This document shows, piece after piece, positions 33,233 to 64,000 of a stretch of DNA of 64,000 nt. The translations under genes were made by a program, and so were the position numbers. Origin of the DNA: an uncultured Gammaproteobacteria bacterium (lineage in GTDB: Bacteria; Pseudomonadota; Gammaproteobacteria; UBA4575); contig OX638335.1 in assembly GCA_951812785.1 (NCBI GenBank), positions 1,205,501 to 1,269,500 of the forward strand. The letters run 5' to 3'. Position 1 is the first letter of the stretch. Every line of letters starts with the position of its first letter. The notes below the pieces were generated by a model that did no database searches, was not told the DNA's origin, and worked only from the letters and a program-made list of their open reading frames with translations.

Positions 33233-33967
33233 ATGCATTTCAATAAAATTATCGTCATTGGCAGTCTCTTCGTGATATTGGGCGAAGTGTTTTTCACTAC
33301 CATGGGGATGATCATTAAAACCCTTGGCGAAAACATACCTAGTTACCAATTAGTATTTTATCGCAATGTCTTTGCGGTCATCGTGCTTGCACCTTTTTTA
33401 TTTCGTCAGCGTTTAACGCATGTAAAAACAAAACGCATTGGCATGCACTTAATACGTTCAGCCTCAGGTTTGCTAGCCATGTATTGTTTCTTCTACGCAC
33501 TCGCAAATATTGAACTCGCCAACGCCATGCTATTAAAATTAACCGGCCCAATCTTCATCCCAATCATTGCCACATTATGGATACACGAAAAAGTATCGTT
33601 AAAAACATATTTTGGTATCGCATTAGGTTTTATTAGGTGTCATTGTTTTTCTTGATCCCAGCGCAGAAATACAAATTGCTTCTGTGATCGGCTTAATTGG
33701 TGGTGCACTAGCCGCAGGTGCTAAAGTAGCTATTCGTAAAATGTCAGACACCGAACCTACAGCACACATCGTGTTTTACTTTGCATTGTTTGGTGCATTA
33801 TTTAGCGGCATTCCTATGCTGACGAATGAAACGTATTCGCCTAACAACCAAGAATGGTTATTACTGATTGGAATGAGTGACCAACGAATAATGTATTTGT
33901 CGGTGCTGCGTTGATTATTACGGCAGGGTTGGTGATTTTATATAGTAAGAAACCACCTACCGCCTAA
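33233..33967 (+). pseudogene. EamA/DMT-family transporter, frameshifted and internally deleted
   Basis: Frames at 33233-33655 and 33684-33914, then a short third frame to TAA at 33967, give one EamA transporter: five spans, then FLDPSAEIQIASVIGLIGGA, then the end FVGAALIITAGLVILYSKKP. The first break is near 33640 (GFIRCHC versus the expected GFIGVIVFLDP). The second falls after LLIGM and lacks about 60 residues covering spans 8-9. It would export metabolites if intact. A similar C-terminal remnant lies at 46213. Three lesions make a true pseudogene more likely than sequencing error. Confidence 0.85.
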
Positions 33968-34088
33968 CCAGCCTACTCACGCACAAAGTGCATTGAGACC
34001 ACTTTCGTCCAAACAATTGCAATTGTTATTAATTAATTTTACAGTAATTTCATGAGCTTATTAATCAAACTCAATATAATTCTAGAAA

Positions 34089-34138
34089 TATTATACGTCA
34101 CCGAGACCACTTTAAAGTGGTCTCGGTGACGTATAATA
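34089..34138. repeat. 50-bp perfect palindrome
   Basis: Two 25-base arms with no spacer: the left arm includes GTCACCGAGACCACTTT and the right arm AAAGTGGTCTCGGTGAC. The sequence GAGACCACTTT recurs once more at 33995-34005. It has no T tract on either side, so a simple terminator is unlikely. It could extrude as a cruciform or serve as a recombination or replication signal. It ends 24 bases before the next gene's start. Confidence 0.95.
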
Positions 34139-34161
34139 ACTGTTATGTTTTGAGGGAAACT

Positions 34162-35037
34162 ATGCAAACTTCTAGGCAACCAACAATTAATAATCGCCAG
34201 AAGATAGATGTTTCATCTCTGTCAATGGATAAAGATGACTTACGTCGCTTTTGCGACATCCTGCAAGAAAGAGTGAATTCGGCAGCGGAATTTGAAGTTA
34301 ATTTGTTCCAGCAGAATGAGCAAACTGATGAGCAATACCAGCAGAATATAGCAATCTTACGAGAGTCTTTTGAGTTAAGGATTACAATTACAGGTATAGG
34401 TGGCAAGGAACTATGGGGCTCAATTGGGGAGGTTTTCGGCTCGGTCAACTTCCCCGAGCAGGTGAAATCTTTATACGTAGAAAGCGAATCCACTTTAAGG
34501 CACGTACATAACTATTACCCACATAATTCGTTCACGATTTTCTTAGATTTTAGCAAGCCAAAAGTTTTTGATTTGTCAATTATGCCTCACCAAGGTACGC
34601 CTAATGAGTCAAATGTTGAAGTCAAAGGCTATGATGCAATATGGGTCAATGGGGTTTTCACTGAGCTAAAAAAATTCATTGATGATAGGCCCTCTACACT
34701 TTCTATCGTCCACAGCCATGGTGTCTATGACGTCTTACAGTTGGTTTTAGGATTCCCATTATCATTCTGGGTTTGCAGTAAATTTTCTTCGTCTATAGAA
34801 ACTGGATTCGGTAATGGCAATGCATTTGTAATTAGCGCTTTGTATTTATACGCTTTTGTAGCAACTCTTTTCCTATCCAGAATCCTATTTCACTACTTGC
34901 GGTGGGTCTGTCCATTGGTTGAGTACCGATATAAAAATAATGCAATGCTAATACACCGCACGCTATTTGGGGCATTGACTTTAGGTTGGCTAGGTCAATT
35001 CTTATACGATTTTGGAAAATGGCTGCTCAAAACCTAA
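34162..35037 (+). CDS. Cassette-encoded protein with two C-terminal membrane spans, function unknown
   Basis: 291 residues from ATG at 34162 (MQTSRQPTINNRQ), chosen because GAGGG lies 6 bases before; an earlier start at 34117 would fall in the palindrome. Residues 1-195 are soluble and hydrophilic, with an Asp/Glu-rich N-terminal region; two hydrophobic spans follow at about 205-265, and the C-terminus carries one more short hydrophobic stretch. No domain is recognised. Its stop codon lies in the left end of an attC-like site, the layout of an integron gene cassette. Cassette genes are often unique, which agrees with the lack of recognition. Confidence 0.75.
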   Translation: MQTSRQPTINNRQKIDVSSLSMDKDDLRRFCDILQERVNSAAEFEVNLFQQNEQTDEQYQQNIAILRESFELRITITGIGGKELWGSIGEVFGSVNFPEQVKSLYVESESTLRHVHNYYPHNSFTIFLDFSKPKVFDLSIMPHQGTPNESNVEVKGYDAIWVNGVFTELKKFIDDRPSTLSIVHSHGVYDVLQLVLGFPLSFWVCSKFSSSIETGFGNGNAFVISALYLYAFVATLFLSRILFHYLRWVCPLVEYRYKNNAMLIHRTLFGALTLGWLGQFLYDFGKWLLKT

Positions 35038-35106
35038 CAAGCGCATGCAGACGGACCTCATCAGGCGCTACGCGCTTGCCTTGGCCGCTGATGCGAGGCG
35101 TTAGGC
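35032..35106 (+). repeat. attC-like integron recombination site
   Basis: Left core ACCTAAC (35032-35038) and right core GTTAGGC (35100-35106) are near-complementary. Inside them CGCATGCAG and CTGATGCG pair with one unpaired G on the left, as attC sites have an extrahelical base. The stop of the preceding ORF lies in the left core, also usual for cassettes. No integrase gene intI and no second attC were found. Confidence 0.65.
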
Positions 35107-35131: not shown

Positions 35132-35595
35132 ATGAATTGGATCGCTGAATTACAAGATATAAATTATATAGCTGTAGCAATTGCGACAATTACAAGCTAT
35201 ATCCTTGGGTTTACTTGGTACCATTGGACAATTTTGGTGAGGCGTGGGCAAATGTTTTAGGCATCACGAAAGAGGAAGCTGACAATACCGAAGGTCTTGG
35301 AGGTGCTTTTATCATGTCTTTAATTTCAGGACTAACAAAAGCCTTATTTGTCGCCATACTTATGGCAGCAATAAATATATCTGGTATTTTTAATGGAGCA
35401 TTTTTTGGGGTAGTAGTTGCAGTCGTATTTATTTTTACACCATTAGGTTACTACAATGGTTTTGCTCGTACACCTTCAAAACTAACATTAATAAATTCAG
35501 CACATAGCATTGTCGAACTTGCTCTAATTGGTGCAATTATTCAGAATAAAGGGGTCAAAGCCACTGCTGTCTGTAATAGTTCAGACCCGATCTGA
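35132..35595 (+). pseudogene. DUF1761-family membrane protein, frameshifted
   Basis: The ATG frame from 35132 reads MNWIAELQDINYIAVAIATI then LGFTWYHW; after about 35230 the frame changes and continues FGEAWANVLGITKEEADNTE and three more spans to 35595. This is the DUF1761 layout (MNW start, WY, GEAW and four spans). A single T missing from the run ATTTTGG would explain the break. The function of the family is unknown. As the second gene after an attC-like site it may be an integron cassette. Its last codons run into the IS481-like end at 35577, so the original C-terminus may be lost. Confidence 0.7.
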
Positions 35596-35602
35596 CAATT
35601 AG
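35577..35602 (+). repeat. IS481-type end, left direct repeat flanking CRISPR-Cas
   Basis: TAGTTCAGACCCGATCTGAC plus AATTAG, identical to 44837-44862 in the same orientation and to 51302-51327 in inverse orientation. It ends three bases before the first CRISPR repeat. Confidence 0.95.
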
Positions 35603-35605
35603 TTA

Positions 35606-36700
35606 GTTTCAATCCACACGCCCGTATAGGGCGCGACCTAAGCGAGCAGATGCTGGACGATATTCACCAGTAGTTTCAATCCACACGCCCGTATAGGGCG
35701 CGACTTTATCAGCAATGACTATGATGAACATGGAGGGAGTTTCAATCCACACGCCCGTATAGGGCGCGACCGCACGAAGGTAACTGCTGGATCTATGATG
35801 ATGCGTTTCAATCCACACGCCCGTATAGGGCGCGACTGCGTACGAGACGCGCTGAGGGCGCGTTATAACCGTTTCAATCCACACGCCCGTATAGGGCGCG
35901 ACTCGCAGCTGACTTAGAGCCCGCAGATTTATGCATTGTTTCAATCCACACGCCCGTATAGGGCGCGACAGTTTAAACATATCAAACGATGCAATACGAC
36001 CAACGTTTCAATCCACACGCCCGTATAGGGCGCGACCACTCACATTTTTAGATAAAATCAGCGCATCGTTGTTTCAATCCACACGCCCGTATAGGGCGCG
36101 ACCAATAATTTTTTTTAATGTGCGGTGCTGGTTGGTGTTTCAATCCACACGCCCGTATAGGGCGCGACGCGGTACTCGTTAAAAATTCTGATTAGCGACA
36201 GATGTTTCAATCCACACGCCCGTATAGGGCGCGACATCTCGAGTCAAAAAGGCAAGATAAATCTGATGCGTTTCAATCCACACGCCCGTATAGGGCGCGA
36301 CCCAGATATCGGAGCCGATGTGCCGAGTGGCAGTGGTTTCAATCCACACGCCCGTATAGGGCGCGACCCAGATATCGGAGCCGATGTGCCGAGTGGCAGT
36401 GGTTTCAATCCACACGCCCGTATAGGGCGCGACGTGCTGCGGCAGAAAAAGAATTAGCAGAAGCAGCAGTTTCAATCCACACGCCCGTATAGGGCGCGAC
36501 TCGCTCAATATTATCTACGTACCACCTTTTACCAGTTTCAATCCACACGCCCGTATAGGGCGCGACCTCACACCAACACCACTGCTGAGCGGTGTGAAAT
36601 TAGTTTCAATCCACACGCCCGTATAGGGCGCGACAAGTACGTGACAACGCGCTAGTGTGTGAGCACGCGTTTCAATCCACACGCCCGTATAGGGCGCGAC
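35606..36700 (-). CRISPR. Type I-C CRISPR array, 17 repeats and 16 spacers
   Basis: A 32-bp repeat, identical in all 17 copies as read by eye. On the plus strand it starts GTTTCAATCCAC and ends GGGCGCGAC. Repeat starts: 35606, 35673, 35739, 35805, 35871, 35938, 36005, 36071, 36137, 36204, 36270, 36336, 36402, 36469, 36535, 36603, 36669. Spacers are 34-36 bp. Transcription is leftward: the minus-strand repeat ends in ATTGAAAC, the type I-C 5' handle, and contains the CGCCC-GGGCG stem; the cas genes are on the same strand to the right. Spacers at 36302-36335 and 36368-36401 are identical. No degenerate terminal repeat is present at the trailer end, where an IS end follows after three bases. Confidence 0.99.
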
Positions 36701-36875: not shown

Positions 36876-37169
36876 TTACAAAATCAGGGGGGAGCCGAGA
36901 ATGTCAGGGGCGGGTTTTGCACCGTGGTGTTCGACCTTGCTTTGCCATTTGGCACCCAACCGATAAAAGCGCAAACTATCTTCGTTTTCATCGTAAATGT
37001 TGAGTAGGCTTTCTTTCAACATTACCCATTGATCAGGAGTGATTTCGCACTCGAAAACAGAGTTTTGCACACGTATCCCATAATCCAGACAAGTTTTGCT
37101 GATGTGACGAAGGCGTTTTTGACCGCCTGATGATACCACGCTGACATCGTAAGCTATGAGAACCATCAT
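36876..37169 (-). CDS. cas2: CRISPR-associated Cas2
   Basis: 97 residues. It opens MMVLIAYDVSVVSSGGQKRL, the Cas2 first strand with the conserved Asp8, and has the RVQNSVFEC strand. With Cas1 it forms the spacer-integration complex. It lies 7 bp after cas1 and is the last cas gene before the leader. Length fits the short Cas2 of type I-C. Confidence 0.96.
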   Translation of the reverse strand: MMVLIAYDVSVVSSGGQKRLRHISKTCLDYGIRVQNSVFECEITPDQWVMLKESLLNIYDENEDSLRFYRLGAKWQSKVEHHGAKPAPDILGSPLIL

Positions 37170-37176
37170 TTTTGCA

Positions 37177-38196
37177 CTACCTCGGAAAAAACGGTGGGTA
37201 GGATGCCAAATCGTTGCGTAAAAATTTCGCCAGCAACGCAGCCTGGGTGTGGGCTAACAGACCGATGGGCATTTTTTCCTGAAGAAAAGGATGGACAATT
37301 TGCTCCTGCCTTTTTTCCTGCCAGGCGGTCAATACAAGTTTTCTGGTCTCGTCATCCATACGTATTGCCCCGCTGGCTTCCTCAAGAAAACCTGTTGCCT
37401 TTAGCTGTTTGCGATTAATCAGGGTAAGCACAAAGCGGTCGCATCGCCATGCCCGGAATTCTTCCAGCAGGTCGAGCGCCAAGCTCAGCCTTCCGGGACG
37501 GTCTGTGTGCAAGAAGCCAGCATACGGATCAAGCCCAACCCCTTGCAAGGCCGATGCAATTTCATGGGTCATCAGGCTGTAGCTGAAAGACAGCAAGGCA
37601 TTAACGGCATCTGTTGGCGGGCGGCGAGTACGACCATTGAACGTGAAAGCAGCGCGTTGTTCAAGCGAAATCAGATGCTTAAAAACGGCAAAATACCTCG
37701 CTCCTGAATCACCCTCAATGCCTCGCAGCCTATCCAGAGTCGTCGTATGTGAGACACGCCGTAGGGCGCCTGCCAGTTGTCGAGCAGTTTGCTTCAATTG
37801 ATCGTTGTTACCGTGATTACGTAGTTGACGCAAAAGTACCTGTCTCGTATTCGCCAGCTTGGCACCAATAAAAAGGCGTGCGAGCCCCTCTGGGGATTGA
37901 TCCGCAAATCGATATTGCGCGCGCCGCAGCAAGACATTGCCGCTTTGCGGGCCAATTATCCGGGCCTGGAATTTCCCAAAGCTAGTGAAGAAGGCCAATT
38001 CAATCCCTTGTTCTCCGCAACTCGCCATTAACGCGGGAGAGACCATCACCTGACCAAAACAATAGATGCTATCAAAGGCGTGGAAGGGTGCCTGAAACGC
38101 TTTTTTGCCTCCTTGCTCGACCACCAGGGTCTCGCGTTCTTTATGGAGATAGCTACCGTCGGTGGTGATATAGAGATTATTCAGCAGCTTCTTCAT
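37177..38196 (-). CDS. cas1: CRISPR-associated Cas1 integrase
   Basis: 339 residues from ATG at 38196 (MKKLLNNLYITTDGSYLHKE). This start overlaps cas4 by 20 bp; the upstream part of the frame has no Cas1 homology. Typical Cas1 stretches are NALLSFSYSLMTHEI, GLDPYAGFLHTDRPGRLSLA and DLLEEFRAW, which contain the metal-binding His and Asp/Glu of the active site. It integrates spacers with Cas2. Confidence 0.96.
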   Translation of the reverse strand: MKKLLNNLYITTDGSYLHKERETLVVEQGGKKAFQAPFHAFDSIYCFGQVMVSPALMASCGEQGIELAFFTSFGKFQARIIGPQSGNVLLRRAQYRFADQSPEGLARLFIGAKLANTRQVLLRQLRNHGNNDQLKQTARQLAGALRRVSHTTTLDRLRGIEGDSGARYFAVFKHLISLEQRAAFTFNGRTRRPPTDAVNALLSFSYSLMTHEIASALQGVGLDPYAGFLHTDRPGRLSLALDLLEEFRAWRCDRFVLTLINRKQLKATGFLEEASGAIRMDDETRKLVLTAWQEKRQEQIVHPFLQEKMPIGLLAHTQAALLAKFLRNDLASYPPFFPR

Positions 38197-38827
38197 GGCA
38201 AGCGAACAGGGCTTCGGAAAAGCGAGTCGAGGTGTCCTTAAGTTTAGGGCGACATCGGTCCAGAAAAGAACAGCCTTTGCAGCCTGGGGTGTATTCAGCG
38301 TGTGGCAGGTGTCCGGCAGCCAGCAGAGCGCGGGTCTGCTCAATCACTTCACGGGTATATGCTCGAAGCGGATCATTCATCTCCACCCATTCTCGTTTGC
38401 GTACTTGCCAATACCATAGCGCCGCCTTGGATATCATAATCTCTCGCATTTCTTCTAAACAGAGCACCTGAGCGCACAGCTGCACCCGGTCACAGTCCGA
38501 AATCTTGGATTTTCCATGTTTATATTCAACTGGAGTGAGCGCAAATGGTTTCTGTTTTACCTCAAGCAGATCAAGTTTGCCGACGATGCCGAGAGATTCA
38601 GAACAGACCTGCACGCCCCGTTCGGTGCGTAATCCCCTTCGCGTTTCAGCATCTGTTGAGTGCACACGCTCGTGCAACTGATCGCCATGTGCCGTTAGAT
38701 AATTGGCATCCCAGACGCGTTCGATATGGATGTAGGCACACTGGCGTGGGCAGAATACGTAATGTTGCAGGGCGGAAATCGGAACAATCTGTTCATCGAA
38801 GAGCATGCTCTTGTCTGTCGTGATCAT
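38177..38827 (-). CDS. cas4: CRISPR-associated Cas4 exonuclease
   Basis: 216 residues. The 4Fe-4S Cys are in YVFCPRQC and in CKGCSFLDRC; the RecB-like nuclease core includes GKLDLLE and PVEYKHGK (D and ExK). It trims prespacers and helps select PAMs for Cas1-Cas2. A second, truncated cas4 with the same N-terminal motif, SALQHHVFCPRQ, is at 62186. Confidence 0.95.
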   Translation of the reverse strand: MITTDKSMLFDEQIVPISALQHYVFCPRQCAYIHIERVWDANYLTAHGDQLHERVHSTDAETRRGLRTERGVQVCSESLGIVGKLDLLEVKQKPFALTPVEYKHGKSKISDCDRVQLCAQVLCLEEMREIMISKAALWYWQVRKREWVEMNDPLRAYTREVIEQTRALLAAGHLPHAEYTPGCKGCSFLDRCRPKLKDTSTRFSEALFACHEEAAE

Positions 38828-38859
38828 ACCGAAAGATCAAACCCCTGATTTTGGATAAG

Positions 38860-39721
38860 TCAGATCCTTTCGATGATCTCAATCCCCATCGGCATAGATT
38901 CTTTTTCAACCTTGATTTCATAGTCAGTAAATGAACGCGCCACCGTAGACTGATCACGCTTTTTAATAACCACTAGATCAAAGAGTGTGTGTGACGGGGC
39001 TTTCCCCAACTTACTGTCATGTTTGAACACGATCAATCTTCGTGATGTCATGCTGCCTGCGGGTCTAGCAGCCGACTGATCAAATTGAAAGGCGTTTTCC
39101 AGTGACTGGAAAAGTAACTCAAGGTCATTGTTATCAAAGCCGGTTCTGGGCAAGGAAGGGGTTGACGAAGCCATAAGCACGGTACAGGCCGTAGGGAACC
39201 GTAAATTTACGCCCCATGGTGCGTTCCTTTTCCTGGTCTTTTTCGTTAGTCACAGAAGAACGGGTGATGGCATGCTCGCTGGAAACGATAGGGTCAATGG
39301 AGCGAGAAAAGGATAGTTGCACCGGCCCACGCACCTGTCCGCAATTGACACCAGTAGACATCACAGCGCCGAACGCTCGCACATCATAATAGTGTTTGCA
39401 CATCCACGCAGTGGCTTTCTCTTTAATTTCTGCCTTAACTTTTTTGGACGGTTCTTCACCAATCTCTGTGTAGGCTTCTTCGTGCTGCTGATTATGCACG
39501 ACACCTTCTGTAAAGTAGATTGCTTGTCCCTCAACCTGTTCACTAGTCATGGCGACAAAGTTGCGAATCTTGCGCTTCAGGCAGACATCGGTCACCAGAC
39601 CTTGACCGGTTTCGGCATCTACCCGCGGCAGGTTTCCGGCATCGGGGTCACCGTTGGGGTTGGCGTCCTGACAGTCGAAAAGATAGATAAAATCATAACG
39701 ATGGTTGATAGCAATGCTCAT
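38860..39721 (-). pseudogene. cas7: Cas7 (Csd2) backbone subunit, frameshifted
   Basis: ATG at 39721 starts the frame two bases after the cas8c stop. It reads to [11 protein letters not shown] and then stops at 39134; the rest of Cas7 ([20 protein letters not shown] onwards) is in another frame ending at 38860. The break is at about 39145-39150, where CAGAACCGG would be in frame with one A fewer or two bases more. The N-terminal part has the [15 protein letters not shown] and CLKRKIRN motifs of Csd2. Cas7 forms the crRNA-binding backbone of Cascade; without it interference fails. Sequencing error, true decay or programmed shifting are all possible. Confidence 0.92.
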
Positions 39722-39723
39722 GG

Positions 39724-41607
39724 TCAAAGGTCCTTAATAGTATCTTTATTCAAAGGTGTTTCTTCGGTTCCGCTGGCCGGATCATCAGCTTGTTTACCCT
39801 TGGGGATGAAAAAATACTGTCGCTGATGGTAATAGCCAATGGCAAACAAGCCTTGGTCTGCCAGCCCCAATTGACTTGGATAATCATCCAGCAAGACATG
39901 AATGGATTGTACAAGCTGTTCACGGGAAATTTTGACTGGTGTTTCCAGCTTGGCCAGATGATGTTGATAGGTTCGCAAAATGCGCGGAAAAACGCTTCCC
40001 GGCGTTGCCGAGGCACTGCTGTAATAGCGTTCCCGTAGCCCGGCGTTAATTTCTCGGCCAAGCGCGTCTTCCTGGGTTTTTTGCAGGGCGGCAAACAGAC
40101 GCCCCAACAAATAAGCTGGGTCAGTACGTTCCGTATTCAGGCTCATATCAATTGTCCTCTTAAGATTCCGTGTCAGCACCGCCTTGAGAATAGCAGCTTT
40201 CAGGTAAGTGATCTTCTCTCCGGCGCGAATTCGGGTAATGATACCATTCAACAAGGTCATCGGGTAGGGAGTCCCCTGAAGAATGGCGTGCATGAGTTGC
40301 CCACCGAGTATCGGGGAAATATCATCCTTTCGGGCCGTTTCGGCCAGCAAGCGCTCGGCGGAAGGAAACTCCGGTTCATGGTAGCGATCGGCATCGGGAT
40401 GACGATAGAGTGCCAGCAATTCGAAATGCCCTCGCAGCCGCTCGAGTAATTCCCGAATGGTACACACATGCCAGAAACGCACTGCAAGGCGGCTTTTGTT
40501 GCCAGACAACCCAAGGATATAAAACCGGGTGTCGGGGTCATCTTCAAGTACATCGAAACCCCCTCCGCCACCTCGGCGTAACGTGTTAAGGAAGGCGTCG
40601 AGTCTGTCTTGCATTAGGCCATCTTCTTCTGTGTTCAATTCTCCATCTGCTTCTTTAACATCAACATCGCCCCTAAAAAACGAAGCGAACAGGCTTTCCG
40701 TTTTTGTCGCACGTTCCGTCCAGAAAACCGTGGTGGCATCACCAATCTTCATGCGGTGGCGCTTGTTTTGCGGGCCATCCAACAGGGCATTCAGGGCCTT
40801 GCCGTAATGGGATACCACCGTCGTTGCCACTGGCGCGTTGTAGGATTGATCTTTGGCGTAGGATTCAAAAGATGGCTGATTAAAAGAGGCCAGCTTGGCT
40901 CCGCTAGGTGCGGCCCCGGCCACACCTTTCACGGCCGGTTCATGTAATCGGGCAATGGTGTCTTGCCTGCCGGTTGCTAAACAGATACCCGTTTGCTCTT
41001 TCGTCATGCTTACCTGTCTATTTTTTTCATACCACTGTTTGAATGCTTCGGTATCGTGGACGTATTCCCTGCTCGCAATGATACGGAAAACGCCATTGCC
41101 AGTGGTGGCGAAATTATCAAGCTTTGCTATCCATTGCGCGTTAATATCACTGGGATTCCACTGTTCCAGGAACCGGCAAACAGCACTGAATGGAGGCGTA
41201 TTGATTTGATTTTCCAACGCCAGATGATGTTTCCGGGTAGCAGTAAAGGTTTCCTGTGCTCGCTTCTGTTTTTTGCCCGTCTCTTCCGTGTTGCTGAGGT
41301 CAGGTGTTTTGTAACCAAGCAAATACCCGGCATTATCCCAAAGCGTACAAGGATTGATGCCGGAACCCGAGGGTTTGGTTTTACCCGGCACGGGTACCTG
41401 CATCAGTCTGTGGGTTGTGTTGGTTTTTCCAGATTTGAGCGTTGTGGCAACCGGCTGTCGGGCATCTTGGATATCATGCAGGTAACCGTCCTCTTCCAGC
41501 ACGATACAAAAGCTGACTTTCTGGATCGACCAGCCAGTTGGTGCAATGCCGTACTTCTCATCTCCGATAAGTCGGTCATAAAGCGTGTTCAGTGCAGGCA
41601 GGATCAT
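39724..41607 (-). CDS. cas8c: Cas8c (Csd1) large subunit
   Basis: 627 residues, slightly longer than the family's usual 570-600. The start [16 protein letters not shown] and the [10 protein letters not shown] region are typical of Csd1. In Cascade I-C it recognises the PAM and supplies the small subunit from an internal start. It begins two bases after the cas5c stop and is followed two bases later by cas7. The C-terminal end is hydrophilic and Asp/Lys-rich. Confidence 0.94.
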
Positions 41608-41609
41608 AT

Positions 41610-42293
41610 TCAGGTGACCGTCAGTTCGACCGGTGGTACTTCAATGATGCCTTTTTTCATTTCCGCGCGGAAAAAGTGTGCAGTAGTATCCCTGACTTCT
41701 TTCGTATCGGGATCCTGATCGTACGCCAGGTCATGCAACATAAATCCAAAGTCCTTGTCGCGTTCGCGCTCATCAAGTTTACAGGTAGGCATTTCGTGCT
41801 CAACCAGACTAAAATCTGCTGGAAACTCGCGACAACCCAGATAAGGGTGGTGAAAGTACTGCCCAAGCCTCGCCCGGCGCATGAATATATCCAAGTGTTT
41901 GCCCGCGCAGACCTGTTCGGCGTATTCCTCACCGCCTGGCTCAAAACGGCGAGATAGAACAATAAAGTGCGCCTCAATAGCATAAGCGACATCGCGCAAT
42001 ACCAGTGAGGCACGCTGCTGGCGTTGGTCAGTGACATTGATGCGGTCTGGTTTATCTGTCGCTGGAATTTTGTTGCTGATTTCGTTGCGCCGAATGCTGG
42101 TAAAACGAATCGGCTTAAGCACATGAATCTTGTCAATGACCCAACGTATTTGAGGCTTCCAGTATATCGCTTCCAGCACCCCGCGCGCTGCCGAAGGGGT
42201 CATGACGTCATAAGATACGCGTTCTGCTTTCATCTCCGGGCGGGTAAAACAGGCGAGCTCGCCCCACACATGTAATTTTATGCCATACGCCAT
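41610..42293 (-). CDS. cas5c: Cas5c (Cas5d) crRNA-processing nuclease
   Basis: 227 residues from ATG at 42293 ([20 protein letters not shown]), 13 bp after cas3; the longer upstream frame runs through the cas3 end and lacks homology. In type I-C this protein replaces Cas6 and cuts the repeat. Conserved features include [20 protein letters not shown]. It remains bound to the 5' handle of the crRNA. Confidence 0.95.
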
Positions 42294-42306
42294 TTTCGCA
42301 ATATAT

Positions 42307-44682
42307 CTACCATATCGAATCCCGCAGCGCGAGTATAACATCTTCTTTGGTATGCAATCCATACTCTGGCGAGTAATGCGATGTACATGCCAAAACGAAA
42401 AAGCGTTCATCATGCAGTGAATAAAGCACACCCGCATCCCTTAATTGGCGATGCTGCCACTCGGGTATATTGACCGTATACCGCTGTAACTTTCGTGCGA
42501 TGGTGCGTAACTTCTGGGGATCGTGGGCGTTCTCTAACTCCTTAGCTAAGCGCGGTGCCCCCTCGTATGGGACAAGAACCGGCAAGGAGTGATCATCATC
42601 GATCAGGTGGAAGTTTTGTGCGCAAGTCCTGAATTTAAAGCGTAGAAAATCCTCTTCTCGGGTGATTTTGCTTGGCCAGCAACCGAGAATGTCTTTGTTG
42701 TCTGTATGAGACCCATTCTTCCAATAATACAAGCGGAAATATTCTTCGATGCGATCCAAACCAAGCGGATCTCCGACTGTTTGACTCAACACCTCGCCAG
42801 CGGTTTCAGCACTGTTGCGGATAATCCCTGGCGGTGCGGATTCATCTGGTGTGAAAATAATCATCTGCCCACCTGGACTGCCTTGGCGCTGCGTTAGCGT
42901 GCCTTCCCTATCGCAACGACCGGCCGCTTGGGCGATGCTGTCCAAGCCAGCCATGGCGCGATACACAACCGGGAAGTCGATGTCTACTCCCGCCTCAATC
43001 AATTGAGTGGCAATCAGGCGAACGGGCTTTCCGGCCTCTAAGGCATTCTTGATTTCAGCCAGCCTGCTCTTGCGGTGTTCCGGACACATCAACGTCGAAA
43101 GGTGATAGCGGTGATCATCATCAGGCAGAAGATCAAACACTTCTCTGGCGTGCCGCCGCGTATTGACAATGCACAAAACTTGGCGGTGTTCAGCTAGTTT
43201 GGCGGCCAGCGTAACGTTGTTAAGGCGAGTTCGCAGATTTTCGCATTTGACTCGCCTCAAGGCCCGATAAAACTTGCCTGGATCAGGAATGATTTCTTTG
43301 GGTTGTTCGATGCCAATGCTGAATTCAGCATTACTTTCAATGGCAGGTTGGGTGGCAGTGCAAAGTACCACCGATGTGCCGTAACTCTTGACCAGTTGTT
43401 CCAGTGTACGCAAACAGGGATCCAGGTATCCCACCGGAAGGTTCTGGGCTTCGTCCAGAATGACAACAGACCGGGCAATATTGTGGAGTTTGCGGCAACG
43501 GGAAGGTCGATTGGCATGCAGCGATTCAAAAAATTGCACATTAGTGGTGACGATAATGCGGGCATCCCAGTTCTCTGCCGCTAACCGAGACCAGGTACTT
43601 TGCTTATCTTCGTCCGCGCCGAAATTAGAATGATGTTCAAGTACAACCTCGGGGCCAAACTGTGCCAGCGCCTCTCTAAATACCTTGGCGTTCTGTTCGA
43701 TGATGGAGGTATAGGGTATGACATAGATGACCCGGCGCAGGTTGTGCTTGCGAGCATGAGCCAGCGCAAACGCCAATGAAGATAGCGTTTTACCACCTCC
43801 GGTGGGCACCGTCAGACTAAAAAAGCCGGGTTGTTCAGGCGCTGCTTGCAGACACTTATTGTAAATTTGTTCGCGTATTTGATTGACAGGGGACCTCGCC
43901 GCCTTGTTTTGCAGGGCAATGATGTACATTTTCAGGCTTTTTTCAAGCTTGAGCATGGGCGGCAAGCATTTTGTTCTCGCTGTTTTTTTTTCAGGTGACA
44001 TAAAGGATTCAGTCGCCAGAAAGTCGGCATCCACGAGCGTGGAAAAGAGCATGCGCATAAAGAAAGACAGGTTAAGCCCTTCGTGTTTACCGCCTGTACA
44101 TAGGATTCTCTCGTTTAATTCGCTCGAGAAATTGAGCAGTGATTCAGGTGCGTTGCCTTGGTAGGCAGGGATATCTTTTTTTAGTCGGCTCTCCAGAGAT
44201 GCCTCTGAGGCTGCTGCGATACCGTCGGCAAGCCCTGCATGGTGTCCGGCGATCAGATAGCTAAATAAATAGCCGTAATTTTCAATTGTCTTGTGAGCAT
44301 GTTGTGCGCCAGCAGTGGCATGATCAACCCTACCCTTGATTTCGCCTTCGTGAGATCCACTACCTGGTTGCCGGATATAATCTTGAAACGCATCGGAATA
44401 CTTACCAAGGTCGTGCCAGAGACCTACCAGAGAACCCCATGCACGGACGCTCTCTGCACTGTGCAGGTCTCTCGCGAACATGTCCTCTGCAAAGCCTGCT
44501 GACCAGTAGGCCACTTTGTTCAAATGGCCATGGTCTGGTTTGAATGTTTTGCAATGCTCACAAGTGAGCATTGAACACTCGTCCGCGTTCTGCCCCAACG
44601 GTGTAAATAATGGCTCCCATTCATCCTCGGGAGATACGCCGCTATTGAGCTGAGGCTTGCTGTGGGCAAAATAGCGTTTCAT
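42307..44682 (-). CDS. cas3: Cas3 helicase-nuclease
   Basis: 791 residues from ATG at 44682 ([20 protein letters not shown]). An N-terminal HD nuclease ([12 protein letters not shown] with His90-Asp91), a superfamily-2 helicase with Walker [13 protein letters not shown] and Walker [12 protein letters not shown], and motif [11 protein letters not shown]. It is recruited to R-loops made by Cascade and degrades the target strand. It is the first gene of the leftward cas operon. Confidence 0.96.
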
Positions 44683-44836
44683 TAGGTAAAGCCTTGAATT
44701 GATTTTGGGAATTATTATTGGTGAATAGTAGCGCCTGAACAGTTGAATTTGCAAGAAGAGCAGCATAAAGTTTCATTCAATCTCATCGAAGTAATGGTTC
44801 TAAAAATGGGGAAAGGTCAGCATCAATAATTGTAGT

Positions 44837-45522: not shown

Positions 45523-45918
45523 TTACTGGGAAACTGAGCTTAATTTTAAATGTTTAGAAAAGGGAATGAAGTCTCTGTCTGTGTAAAGTAGCGGTAACTT
45601 TTCTTCTATACAGAATGTGGCAATAATTATGTCCGCTGTCTTTCTAATAGTAATTCCCTTTTTCCTGAGTTTCCGATAGTGATTGGCAGCCTTAAGTGCA
45701 AGTTGTGTGCTTAGCATATTGTATTGGTGCAACCTAGCCAGACATTTTTTGGTGGTGTTCTAGTCTTTATCCAAATGAAAACCGCGTAATATTTCAAGAG
45801 CTATGAGGTCTCCAATAGCTACTTCTTGTTTGCCTAAGGCAATGTCTAAAATATTGGTTTCGGGGGTATTTTTACCATTAAAATAATCAATCCAGACACT
45901 GGTATCAACAATTATCAG
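45523..45918 (-). pseudogene. vapC: VapC-type PIN-domain toxin with lost start and nonsense codon
   Basis: One frame of 131 codons reads IIVDTSVWIDYFNG, then AIGDLIALEILRG, an in-frame TAG at codon 53 (45760-45762) and continues to KTADIIIATFCIEEKLPLLY TDRDF. The PIN-domain acidic residues (Asp in VDTSVW, Glu in LEILRG, Asp in TADIII and TDRDF) are kept. The position of ATG is CTG (45916-45918), overlapping the vapB stop. Two lesions suggest a dead toxin whose antitoxin remains. Confidence 0.8.
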
Positions 45919-46109
45919 TTATCAGTTCTCATATCATCAAGGTCACCTTCCCACTTAAGCTTACCTCTAAGGTTGCGTATGCTTTCTTGTTTTTTTAGTC
46001 TTATCAGGGTATTAAGTCCTTTTTCTACAACCTCTTTATTGGTTTGCAAACCAGTAGCCTTAAGAGCGTCCGCCATAAGCTTGTCGTCAATCACTATGTT
46101 TGTTCTCAT
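45915..46109 (-). CDS. vapB: VapB-type antitoxin
   Basis: 64 residues. The N-terminal RTNIVIDDKLMADALKATGL is the ribbon-helix-helix of the VapB (type II) antitoxins of this subfamily, and the C-terminus (LRGKLKWEGDLDDMR) is the toxin-binding tail. It should neutralise and co-repress vapC, which is broken just downstream, so it is now an orphan antitoxin. Confidence 0.88.
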   Translation of the reverse strand: MRTNIVIDDKLMADALKATGLQTNKEVVEKGLNTLIRLKKQESIRNLRGKLKWEGDLDDMRTDN

Positions 46110-46212
46110 GTTGACCTATGTGTATTAAACGTTAATATAATACACATTTTGGGTCAAAAATATAACAAGCGCAAACGCTCGGATCAATTTTACGCTGCGC
46201 TTCAAATTGCCC

Positions 46213-46278
46213 GGTGTTGCAGGCGTTATTACTGCAGGATTAGTGATTTTATACCGCAAGAAGAAGCTCTCTTCATAA
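46213..46278 (+). pseudogene. C-terminal remnant of a second EamA transporter
   Basis: GVAGVITAGLVILYRKKKLS then S and TAA: 22 codons that match the end of the EamA pseudogene at 33914 (VGAALIITAGLVILYSKKP) but are not identical at DNA level. No start or upstream part exists. A segment just before it (46165-46208, AACAAGCGCA...TGCGCTT) resembles half of an attC site. Confidence 0.55.
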
Positions 46279-46466: not shown

Positions 46467-46739
46467 CTAGTATTGATCGTAATGGCCACCTATAGCGAAT
46501 ATATAAATGGACGTGTCATTGAATCGATATATTAATCGGTCTTTTTGCGAGATTCGTCGAGACCAAAGTCCTGACAGATTATGTTTGAGTGGCTCAGGCC
46601 TACCTAATCCAGAGGTCAAATCTTCAGAGCGAAGCACTTCCTTGAGCAATTTACGGAGTGCTTTGTGCAATTGTGTGTCCTGCTCACGCAGCTTTTCGTA
46701 TTTCTCCCAGGTATTACCTTCAAACACCAGTGATTTCAT
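46467..46739 (-). CDS. yoeB: YoeB-family toxin
   Basis: 90 residues, full length for YoeB/Txe. Conserved ALRKLLKEVLRSEDLTSGLG, PEPLKHNLSGLWSRRIS and a C-terminal RLIYRF...HYDQY, including the catalytic Arg and His-Tyr. It cuts mRNA on the ribosome. It overlaps yefM by 20 bp on the same strand. Confidence 0.95.
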   Translation of the reverse strand: MKSLVFEGNTWEKYEKLREQDTQLHKALRKLLKEVLRSEDLTSGLGRPEPLKHNLSGLWSRRISQKDRLIYRFNDTSIYIFAIGGHYDQY

Positions 46740-46992
46740 TCAGTTCGTTATCTGTTGGTCTATATCCATTGTCATTACTATGTGTGTTCAGCGAATTTGC
46801 TATCTGTTGCATCAAATCACTATTTTGCAAAACGTAAAGGCTTTCCTGTTCGCGTTCCCAGTCTTCAGCACTCATCACGACAAAAGCCTCGCCCGCTCGG
46901 CGTGTTACCTTAATCGGTTCATGGGCACTAATTGCTTGTTCTACAAAGCTTCTCAGGTTGTCTCTAAACCGGTTTACGCTAATTGTTTCCAT
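46720..46992 (-). CDS. yefM: YefM-family antitoxin
   Basis: 90 residues. METISVNRFRDNLRSFVEQA and KVTRRAGEAFVVMSAEDWE are the Phd/YefM DNA-binding domain; the C-terminus is the disordered toxin-binding tail. It binds YoeB and its own promoter. It is the first gene of the pair. Confidence 0.95.
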   Translation of the reverse strand: METISVNRFRDNLRSFVEQAISAHEPIKVTRRAGEAFVVMSAEDWEREQESLYVLQNSDLMQQIANSLNTHSNDNGYRPTDNELNEITGV

Positions 46993-62293: not shown

Positions 62294-63136
62294 CTAAAAG
62301 CCATCTATTTCGTTGGGAACAAGGCCATCCAGCGGCTGCAATTCATAACTCGCATCTGGCCCAACCTTTAGGCTGCCATGCACCTTGGCGGATGAGTATT
62401 GGCCAGCCTTGGAGCTATGCTCCCACCAGATGACTTTTTCTATATTCATGGAGCCTTCCGGTCTGGCCGCAGATGCATCACCTTCAAACAATCTTGGCAA
62501 TATCTCTTTGATGACCTCCGCATCATCGTTGCTGAAGCCGGTTCTTTCCGCCAGTTGTGGGGTGATAGCCCCAAAAGCCGCATACACAGCTTTGTCAACC
62601 CGATGTTTCATCCCCATGGTGTCAGATGCCTTCTTTGTGCCATCGCCTTCTCCGCTGACACTCTTGGTGATCTGGGTACTGGTAACACTTACTGGTTCGA
62701 TACTGAACGCAGACTGAATGGTGACCGGACCGCGAATGGGGATGGATACGCCTTGTCCTTTTGCTTTGCCTTGATAGGCAAATATCTGACCAAAACTTCG
62801 CACATCAAACCACTTTTCACAGCATCTTCCGGCAATTTCTTCGGGGGTTGATTTTTTGTTGTCAAATGCGGTTTTGCCCAATCCGTGTTTTTCAGATTCT
62901 GCTCTTGCCTTGAGGCTCGGCATTCCATCGGTTTTCTTTTCATCTGATTGAACAAATATGGGATAGTCGGATTCCTGTAGACGATCCCGGATTTTGCGTT
63001 TTAGACAAACGTCGGTTATTTCCCCAAAGCCCTGGTAATCCACGCGAGGGCGGTTTCCGTTCAAAGGGTCGCCATTAGGATTGGCGTTTTTCACAGTGAA
63101 AATAATCGCAAAGTCGATCTTGTTTTGCAGACCCAT
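62294..63136 (-). CDS. cas7: Second Cas7 (Csd2), type I-C
   Basis: 280 residues from ATG at 63136 (MGLQNKIDFAIIFTVKNANP), five bases after the cas8c stop, with GAGGAA upstream. NGDPLNGNRPR and CLKRKIRDRLQ are the Csd2 motifs. It is intact, unlike the first Cas7, and clearly different in sequence, so it represents a distinct I-C lineage. Longer frames upstream overlap cas8c and are not used. Confidence 0.95.
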   Translation of the reverse strand: MGLQNKIDFAIIFTVKNANPNGDPLNGNRPRVDYQGFGEITDVCLKRKIRDRLQESDYPIFVQSDEKKTDGMPSLKARAESEKHGLGKTAFDNKKSTPEEIAGRCCEKWFDVRSFGQIFAYQGKAKGQGVSIPIRGPVTIQSAFSIEPVSVTSTQITKSVSGEGDGTKKASDTMGMKHRVDKAVYAAFGAITPQLAERTGFSNDDAEVIKEILPRLFEGDASAARPEGSMNIEKVIWWEHSSKAGQYSSAKVHGSLKVGPDASYELQPLDGLVPNEIDGF

Positions 63137-63140
63137 GTTG

Positions 63141-64000
63141 TTATTCCTCTGTTGGTTCTTCTGATTCATCGTTATCGGCTTTTTTGCGTAGTGCCAGGCG
63201 TTGGCAGTGGAAGCTAAGTAGAAATTCGGGGCTGAGTGGATCAGACGATGTGAACTCATGCGGGTCAAAGGCACTCATGATTTCATCCAACTCTTTCTTT
63301 CGATTTTCCAGAAAACCGCCCCGACTACTTTGCAATTGCAGCATATAGGGGTTGAGTTGTTTGTAGATAGTCTGCCAAGTTTCACTGGGTCTATCGGAAA
63401 AGCGCTGCATCAACCGCTCAGCGGTTGTCGGTCTCTTGACGTTAGCAAGGTGCAACGCGAGTTGTTCGATTTTTTCTGCTACCGCCAGCAGACGACCAAA
63501 CAAATAATCGCGTGACTGGTTTTCTCGGTCGAGTGACATGGAAAAATTCCTCCTTTCCCCCGGTTTCGGATGACGTCGGTAATACCCTCGATACAGTGAA
63601 CAGGCAATGCCCAGGTTTCGTTCCCAGTATTCAGTGCTGGCTGGATTGCTTGCCTTGGCTACCGCCAAACGCAAAAGATCATCCGGTAACGGCCTGCCTT
63701 CTACAATACAGGGTAATAATCGTTCTTTCACGCTTTTTTCCAATGCGGGACTACTTTTATCTCCATAACAGACTTCGAAAATGTGCTTTGGAGAGGGTGC
63801 GCCGGGCACCCAGCGGGCTGCACTGTTGGCTTTTCCGGCTTGCCCTTTTTCCGAGTTCACCAAGCGTTGTGGCCAGGCAAATTCTTCATGCCAAAGCTCT
63901 ATCATATTAAGATATTCACAAGCCATAAAGTCGCGGTAGTAGGTTACCGCCATCCGACCAGGTGTGGCGGAATCCAACGCCATGATAACGATGCTATCTG
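63141..64000 (-). CDS. cas8c: Second Cas8c (Csd1), N-terminus beyond the window
   Basis: The frame is open to the right edge (DSIVIMALDSATPGRMAVTY then YRDF). The C-terminal 286 residues contain RVAVT-type Csd1 features such as ALDSATPGRMAVTYY and FLLSFHCQRLALRKKADND near the end. It runs into the second cas7 with a 4-base gap. cas5c and cas3 of this locus are expected to the right. Confidence 0.93.
   Translation of the reverse strand, partial: DSIVIMALDSATPGRMAVTYYRDFMACEYLNMIELWHEEFAWPQRLVNSEKGQAGKANSAARWVPGAPSPKHIFEVCYGDKSSPALEKSVKERLLPCIVEGRPLPDDLLRLAVAKASNPASTEYWERNLGIACSLYRGYYRRHPKPGERRNFSMSLDRENQSRDYLFGRLLAVAEKIEQLALHLANVKRPTTAERLMQRFSDRPSETWQTIYKQLNPYMLQLQSSRGGFLENRKKELDEIMSAFDPHEFTSSDPLSPEFLLSFHCQRLALRKKADNDESEEPTEE

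Follow-up and report, generated by a model that had tools for sequence, protein, structure and literature searches.

How does a gene closed by an integron-type attC site come to lie between eamA and a CRISPR-Cas locus, in a neighbourhood that holds no integrase? The locus is found in the stretch of 64,000 nucleotides analysed here (the window), which belongs to a genome assembled as a single contig of 2,158,385 bases (2.16 Mb). The best explanation, to which we give a probability of roughly four in five, is that the gene and its attC are the remnant of an integrase-less cassette array downstream of eamA, whose cassettes a chromosomal integrase, since decayed, probably used to move in trans. 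This reading is built on the structure of the attC site, on a right cassette edge marked by homology, on further attC sites and an IntI relic elsewhere in the genome, and on the cassette-like genes that two sister species have at this locus.

The attC site and its cassette

The attC site occupies positions 35032–35106 of the forward strand, as read from its sequence, its fold and comparison with shuffles. Its R'' core, ACCTAAC (35032–35038), and its R' core, GTTAGGC (35100–35106), conform to the consensus pair RYYYAAC and GTTRRRY and are complementary at six of seven positions; the crossover is expected between G35100 and T35101. The TAA stop codon (35035–35037) of the preceding gene lies inside R'', as in gene cassettes. 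Folding of either strand gives the attC layout, with paired cores, unpaired spacers of 2–4 nt, inner arms and a terminal stem, and the inner arms carry three single bulged (extrahelical) bases.

The plain fold scores of the site are only moderate. The z-score is −2.29 for the top strand and −1.97 for the bottom strand, with equally good folds in 2 and 6 of 200 shuffles, respectively, and it drops to about −1.1 when some 13 flanking bases are included on each side. The cores by themselves are not enriched either, the pattern RYYYAAC-N40..70-GTTRRRY matching the genome 76 times against 84 for a reversed control. With cores and arm pairing combined, a strict scan was passed by none of 60 window shuffles, and in a graded scan the site scored 11.5, a value that none of 100 shuffles reached (best shuffle, 10.4); it was also the only place in the 64-kb window scoring at least 8. 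The thresholds of the strict and graded scans are not blind, because both were written once the site was known. A scan of the window against Rfam returned no family at gathering score. An earlier note on this DNA had pointed to the matching cores, the paired arms with an unpaired base and the stop codon in the left core, and had made its reading depend on the fold; coordinates, fold and shuffle scans now agree with it, and we conclude that 35032–35106 is a genuine integron attC site closing a gene cassette.

The cassette measures about 958 bp (34143–35100, forward strand), with a left edge that we infer at G34142|T34143. Its gene (34162–35037, forward strand) encodes a protein of 291 residues with a helical C-terminal part, probably a membrane protein, for which no family in Pfam, NCBIfam or PADLOC exceeded the cut-off. 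The structural model of the protein is poor (mean pLDDT 61.7), and no PDB match was better than E 0.24. Its peptide patterns were searched in a collection of 84,980 species, each represented by a single genome, an approach that brings only close relatives within reach. Of the 80 stretches that matched, three held relatives of the protein, in a Francisellaceae bacterium (75% identity), Candidatus Scalindua (66%) and Vibrio variabilis (64%). The protein was absent from the 37 other relatives searched and from the viral contigs and plasmids searched.

The three distant copies mark the right edge of the cassette. DNA similarity to the Francisellaceae copy spans 34133–35044, starting ten bases ahead of the proposed left edge, and that to the Scalindua and Vibrio copies starts within the gene (34181 and 34185, respectively), ends at 35041 and 35042, and so bears on the right edge only. 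Given these ends, all three copies stop matching 3–6 nt beyond R''. Each of them, elsewhere in the bacteria, is again a gene ending in attC-like DNA or a relic of it: behind the Francisellaceae gene comes an attC-like site with a scan score of 7.2 (L047, 5871–5931), directly behind the Vibrio gene (L049) an attC-like stretch of 126 nt and behind the Scalindua gene (L048) a decayed attC-like relic, the latter two judged by eye. The graded scan, at a threshold of 7.5, listed none of the three. The earlier proposal that the upstream gene is a cassette thus gains independent evidence from homology that ends just past R'', and on these sequence comparisons the 291-codon gene and its attC form a cassette unit. 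The Vibrio cassette resembles that of the window in the protein family it encodes and in the attC-like DNA directly behind the gene, but its attC, which we take to be VCR-like, is longer, of another sequence type and recognised by eye. In the sister genome G001, an attC (L092; G001:C67, about 1591–1652) differs from that of the Francisellaceae copy at 2 of 55 positions and lies behind a different gene.

Other attC sites and an integrase relic

The earlier note had called the site isolated. This holds for its neighbourhood, no other place in the window scoring 8 or more, but not for the genome, in which nine attC sites (eight of them strong), the window's included, were counted at six places. 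The further sites lie at genome positions 85255, 85847 and 86482; 433952; 556753 and 559687; 579691; and 762951, with 86482 the weakest of the nine. Among the genes beside them, HigA, ParD, Phd and GmrSD matched over the cut-off, and RelE and BrnT below it. A second core pattern, TAACAA-N-RCGTTA, was not enriched (30 matches against 45 in reversed controls and, in another run, 21 against 78); only arm pairing separates attC sites. Ranked by arm pairing, six members of the 30-match set (559687, 556753, 85847, 433952, 1240535, which is the window site, and 762951) exceed all 5,776 mispaired arms. Scoring of the 21-match set came later, was limited to three sites chosen by eye and had no separate background; it gave 10.3 (85255 and 579691) and 8.8 (86482). 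Three candidates falling within the tail of mispaired arms, at 556036 (1.45%), 1251663 (1.75%) and 2026714 (2.4%), were left out of the count. In plain folds, z is −3.6 at 433952, −2.2 at 579691, −1.9 at 762951, −1.1 at 2026714 and −0.6 at 556036.

At 763 kb, the cassette sits in an insert of 873 bp that all four sister genomes lack at the corresponding point, and it was therefore either gained in this lineage or lost in the others. Because the insert begins about 190 bp ahead of its cassette and continues for some 60 bp behind it, it does not represent a clean single-cassette insertion, and its attC has no core pairing in the plain fold.

The statement of the earlier note that no integrase is present also stood: there is no intI-like match near the locus, and nowhere in the genome does an IntI exceed the family cut-off. 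The search elsewhere in the genome that it had proposed yielded only a C-terminal IntI relic of 24 residues at 560304–560378, about 680 kb from the window attC. The relic is 67% identical to one IntI, matches three of the six IntI sequences compared and none of the other three, and has only 8 residues in common with the genome's own Xer-type protein. It is also identical at 12 of 23 positions to the end of a broken intI, interrupted by three stops (E 1.9e-68), in the sister species G004. Each of the two adjoins an aminotransferase gene and a VWA-type gene, the same pair as judged by eye, and the lineage therefore once had a chromosomal integron there. The sister genomes are drafts, in which an intact intI could be hidden. 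The integron remnant also contains a perfect inverted repeat of 57 bp (L016, 7980–8036; G000:C1:557980-558036), which has an attC-like core at each end and is possibly an attC that lost its asymmetry.

The locus behind eamA and its possible origins

The same spot was compared in the sister species. In G003, eamA is followed by a gene with an attC-like spacer behind it and next by a TIR-domain gene that matches models of phage defence, and in G004 by a run of about eleven one-strand genes with five or six attC-like spacers. These spacers are of another sequence type than the window's. At its threshold of 7.5, the graded scan picked up neither these nor those of the distant copies, so that most were judged by eye; one G004 spacer fits a pattern search, with an arm score of 8.2. 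In G002 there is no cassette after eamA and the leader described below is missing too, and in G001 there is none as far as the gapped contig shows. Cassette-like genes are thus found at the eamA spot in three of the five genomes of the genus, namely the window genome, G003 and G004. The eamA gene itself (33233–33970) is damaged in the window, with a frame change near 33630 and an internal deletion near 33870, and is intact in G002, G003 and G004.

This distribution bears on the strongest alternative, in which a secondary (attG) site after eamA received one lone cassette and an array never existed here in the lineage. We regard this as a possible account while leaning against it. It agrees with the one good attC in the neighbourhood, with the single attC sites that also occur at 434, 580 and 763 kb, and with the G|TT at the proposed left edge. 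It does not predict that two sister species would have cassette-like genes and attC-like spacers at the same locus, nor that a DUF1761 gene would begin, in the manner of a second cassette, 25 nt behind the attC. A relative having the leader without a cassette, that is, an empty site, was not found, and insertion at a secondary site is for that reason unproven here. The earlier note had offered two origins, cassettes inserted at a secondary site or the remains of an integron; integron remains do exist, but they lie elsewhere in the genome, at 560 kb, and what is seen behind eamA appears to be a distinct integrase-less array. The two options are not exclusive.

The DUF1761 gene (35132–35595, forward strand) is frameshifted, its first frame ending after 42 codons and the DUF1761 part lying in the frame 35215–35595. 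It may be a second cassette that lost its attC; no second attC was found for it, and an insertion-sequence end has taken the place of its 3' side. The DUF1761 part was absent from the plasmids and viral contigs searched and had a single weak match, at 35% identity, among the 37 other relatives.

On the other side of the cassette, the leader contains a promoter-like module read by eye (TTGCAA, 17 nt, TACAGT; 34017–34045, forward strand), which has a counterpart in G003 and another at position 2034124 of this genome, and a perfect 50-bp palindrome without a loop (34089–34138), which ends 4 bp before the proposed cassette edge. Module and palindrome both have sequence counterparts in G003, those of the palindrome being imperfect. 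A conserved hairpin ahead of the cassette was considered and rejected, the fold being strong only in this genome (z −11.2, against −2.1, −0.6 and −1.1 for three counterparts). The motif WAACWGTTA occurs in the leader at the first cassette of three loci (the window, L081 and L077); about 1.7 matches are expected per strand in 64 kb, further matches occur elsewhere, and the motif is absent upstream of four other first genes. We think it improbable that the genus keeps integrase-free cassette docks, one after eamA composed of promoter-like module, dyad and WAAC-W-GTTA junction and a similar one at 763 kb, at which cassettes moved in trans by a distant integrase would be received and expressed, in effect attI-like sites without intI.

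A promoter-like leader directly ahead of the first cassette would also suit an eamA locus that is itself the original integron, having lost its intI, with the 560-kb relic stemming from another integron. This is a shade less probable still: no intI-like match lies near the locus, and the relic and the broken intI of G004 both adjoin the aminotransferase gene, at another locus.

Downstream, the 33-bp insertion-sequence end (35570–35602), which we take to be IS481-like, has six other exact copies in the genome. The copy at 83 kb precedes a transposase-like ORF, of which a longer copy matches a winged-helix domain over the cut-off and an integrase core below it. Next to the window's insertion-sequence end, as neighbours outside the cassette, are a CRISPR array with 17 exact 32-bp repeats (35606–36700, reverse strand) and cas2, cas1, cas4, cas7, csd1 (cas8c), cas5 and cas3 (36876–44766, reverse strand), presumably of type I-C. 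Two successive spacers of the array (36302–36335 and 36368–36401) are identical, one repeat-spacer unit having been duplicated exactly. A second set of Cas7- and Cas8c-like genes, apart from the locus at 36.9–44.8 kb, was recognised by eye close to the window's right end (62294–63983). Two toxin-antitoxin-like pairs, with VapB- and YoeB-type matches, lie between the cas genes and fumC (45523–46109 and 46467–46992).

Were the doubtful attC-like candidate beyond the cas genes (46160–46231, forward strand; genome position 1251663) a second attC, in the same orientation as the first, the CRISPR-Cas locus could be cargo between the sites at 35032 and 46160. The candidate was judged doubtful, as its fold is no better than that of shuffles (z −0.14), it ranks within the 1.75% tail of mispaired arms, and an eamA-like 3' relic overlaps its right arm; the CRISPR array, moreover, abuts the insertion-sequence end instead, and we consider cargo very unlikely. 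This possible relic (46213–46263), 71% identical over 17 residues (E 0.11), would be what is left of an eamA-like gene at its 3' end. Least likely of all is that a hairpin such as a terminator resembles an attC by chance. A fold z of only about −2 and cores not enriched alone speak for this reading, but it is at odds with a graded score that no window shuffle reached, with attC-like DNA at the same place in the gene's distant relatives, and with the lack of a T run behind the hairpin.

In the array remnant that we favour, the integrase of the lineage would have been sited near 560 kb, from where it most likely acted on cassettes in trans. Recombination would have joined the folded bottom strand of the attC at a G|TT behind the promoter-like leader, which may drive the gene, and the cassette would have entered the eamA locus through its folded attC, either alone or within an array. 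The integrase would then have decayed to its short relic, and the insertion-sequence end and the CRISPR-Cas locus would have replaced the 3' side of the array. The cassette, now presumably fixed, would be the last clear piece of a small array.

Relation to known integrase-less sites

A single attC without an integrase is called a SALIN and a cluster of them a CALIN (PMC12690207), and integrase-less attC sites arise by off-target insertion, by loss of intI or by rearrangement (PMC8618304). The window site corresponds to a SALIN in having one attC with a cassette gene and no integrase in its neighbourhood, where the attC is single, the 46160 candidate being doubtful. It differs in having been called by structure and homology, not by IntegronFinder, and in lying in a genome that also has attC clusters and an IntI relic. 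The likeness to a CALIN comes from the sister species, which show cassette-like runs at the same locus without intI, whereas in the window one good attC is left and the 3' side consists of the insertion-sequence end and the CRISPR array.

In this genome the cassettes have outlived their integrase and are fixed at six places of a single contig, and four sister genomes are at hand, so that the fate of stranded cassettes, and the question whether they favour certain chromosomal spots for landing, are open to direct comparison. Insertion of cassettes at attG sites was reportedly described by Loot et al. in Nat Microbiol in 2024. Single cassettes at scattered chromosomal places are common to that process and to this genome, but the window cassette has no empty site in a relative, so the use of an attG site is not demonstrated for it. 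A repeated, integrase-free landing place within one genus is only suggested by these comparisons. The window site belongs to the already known SALIN/CALIN kind and illustrates well, though not for the first time, how integron genes become stranded in a bacterial genome.
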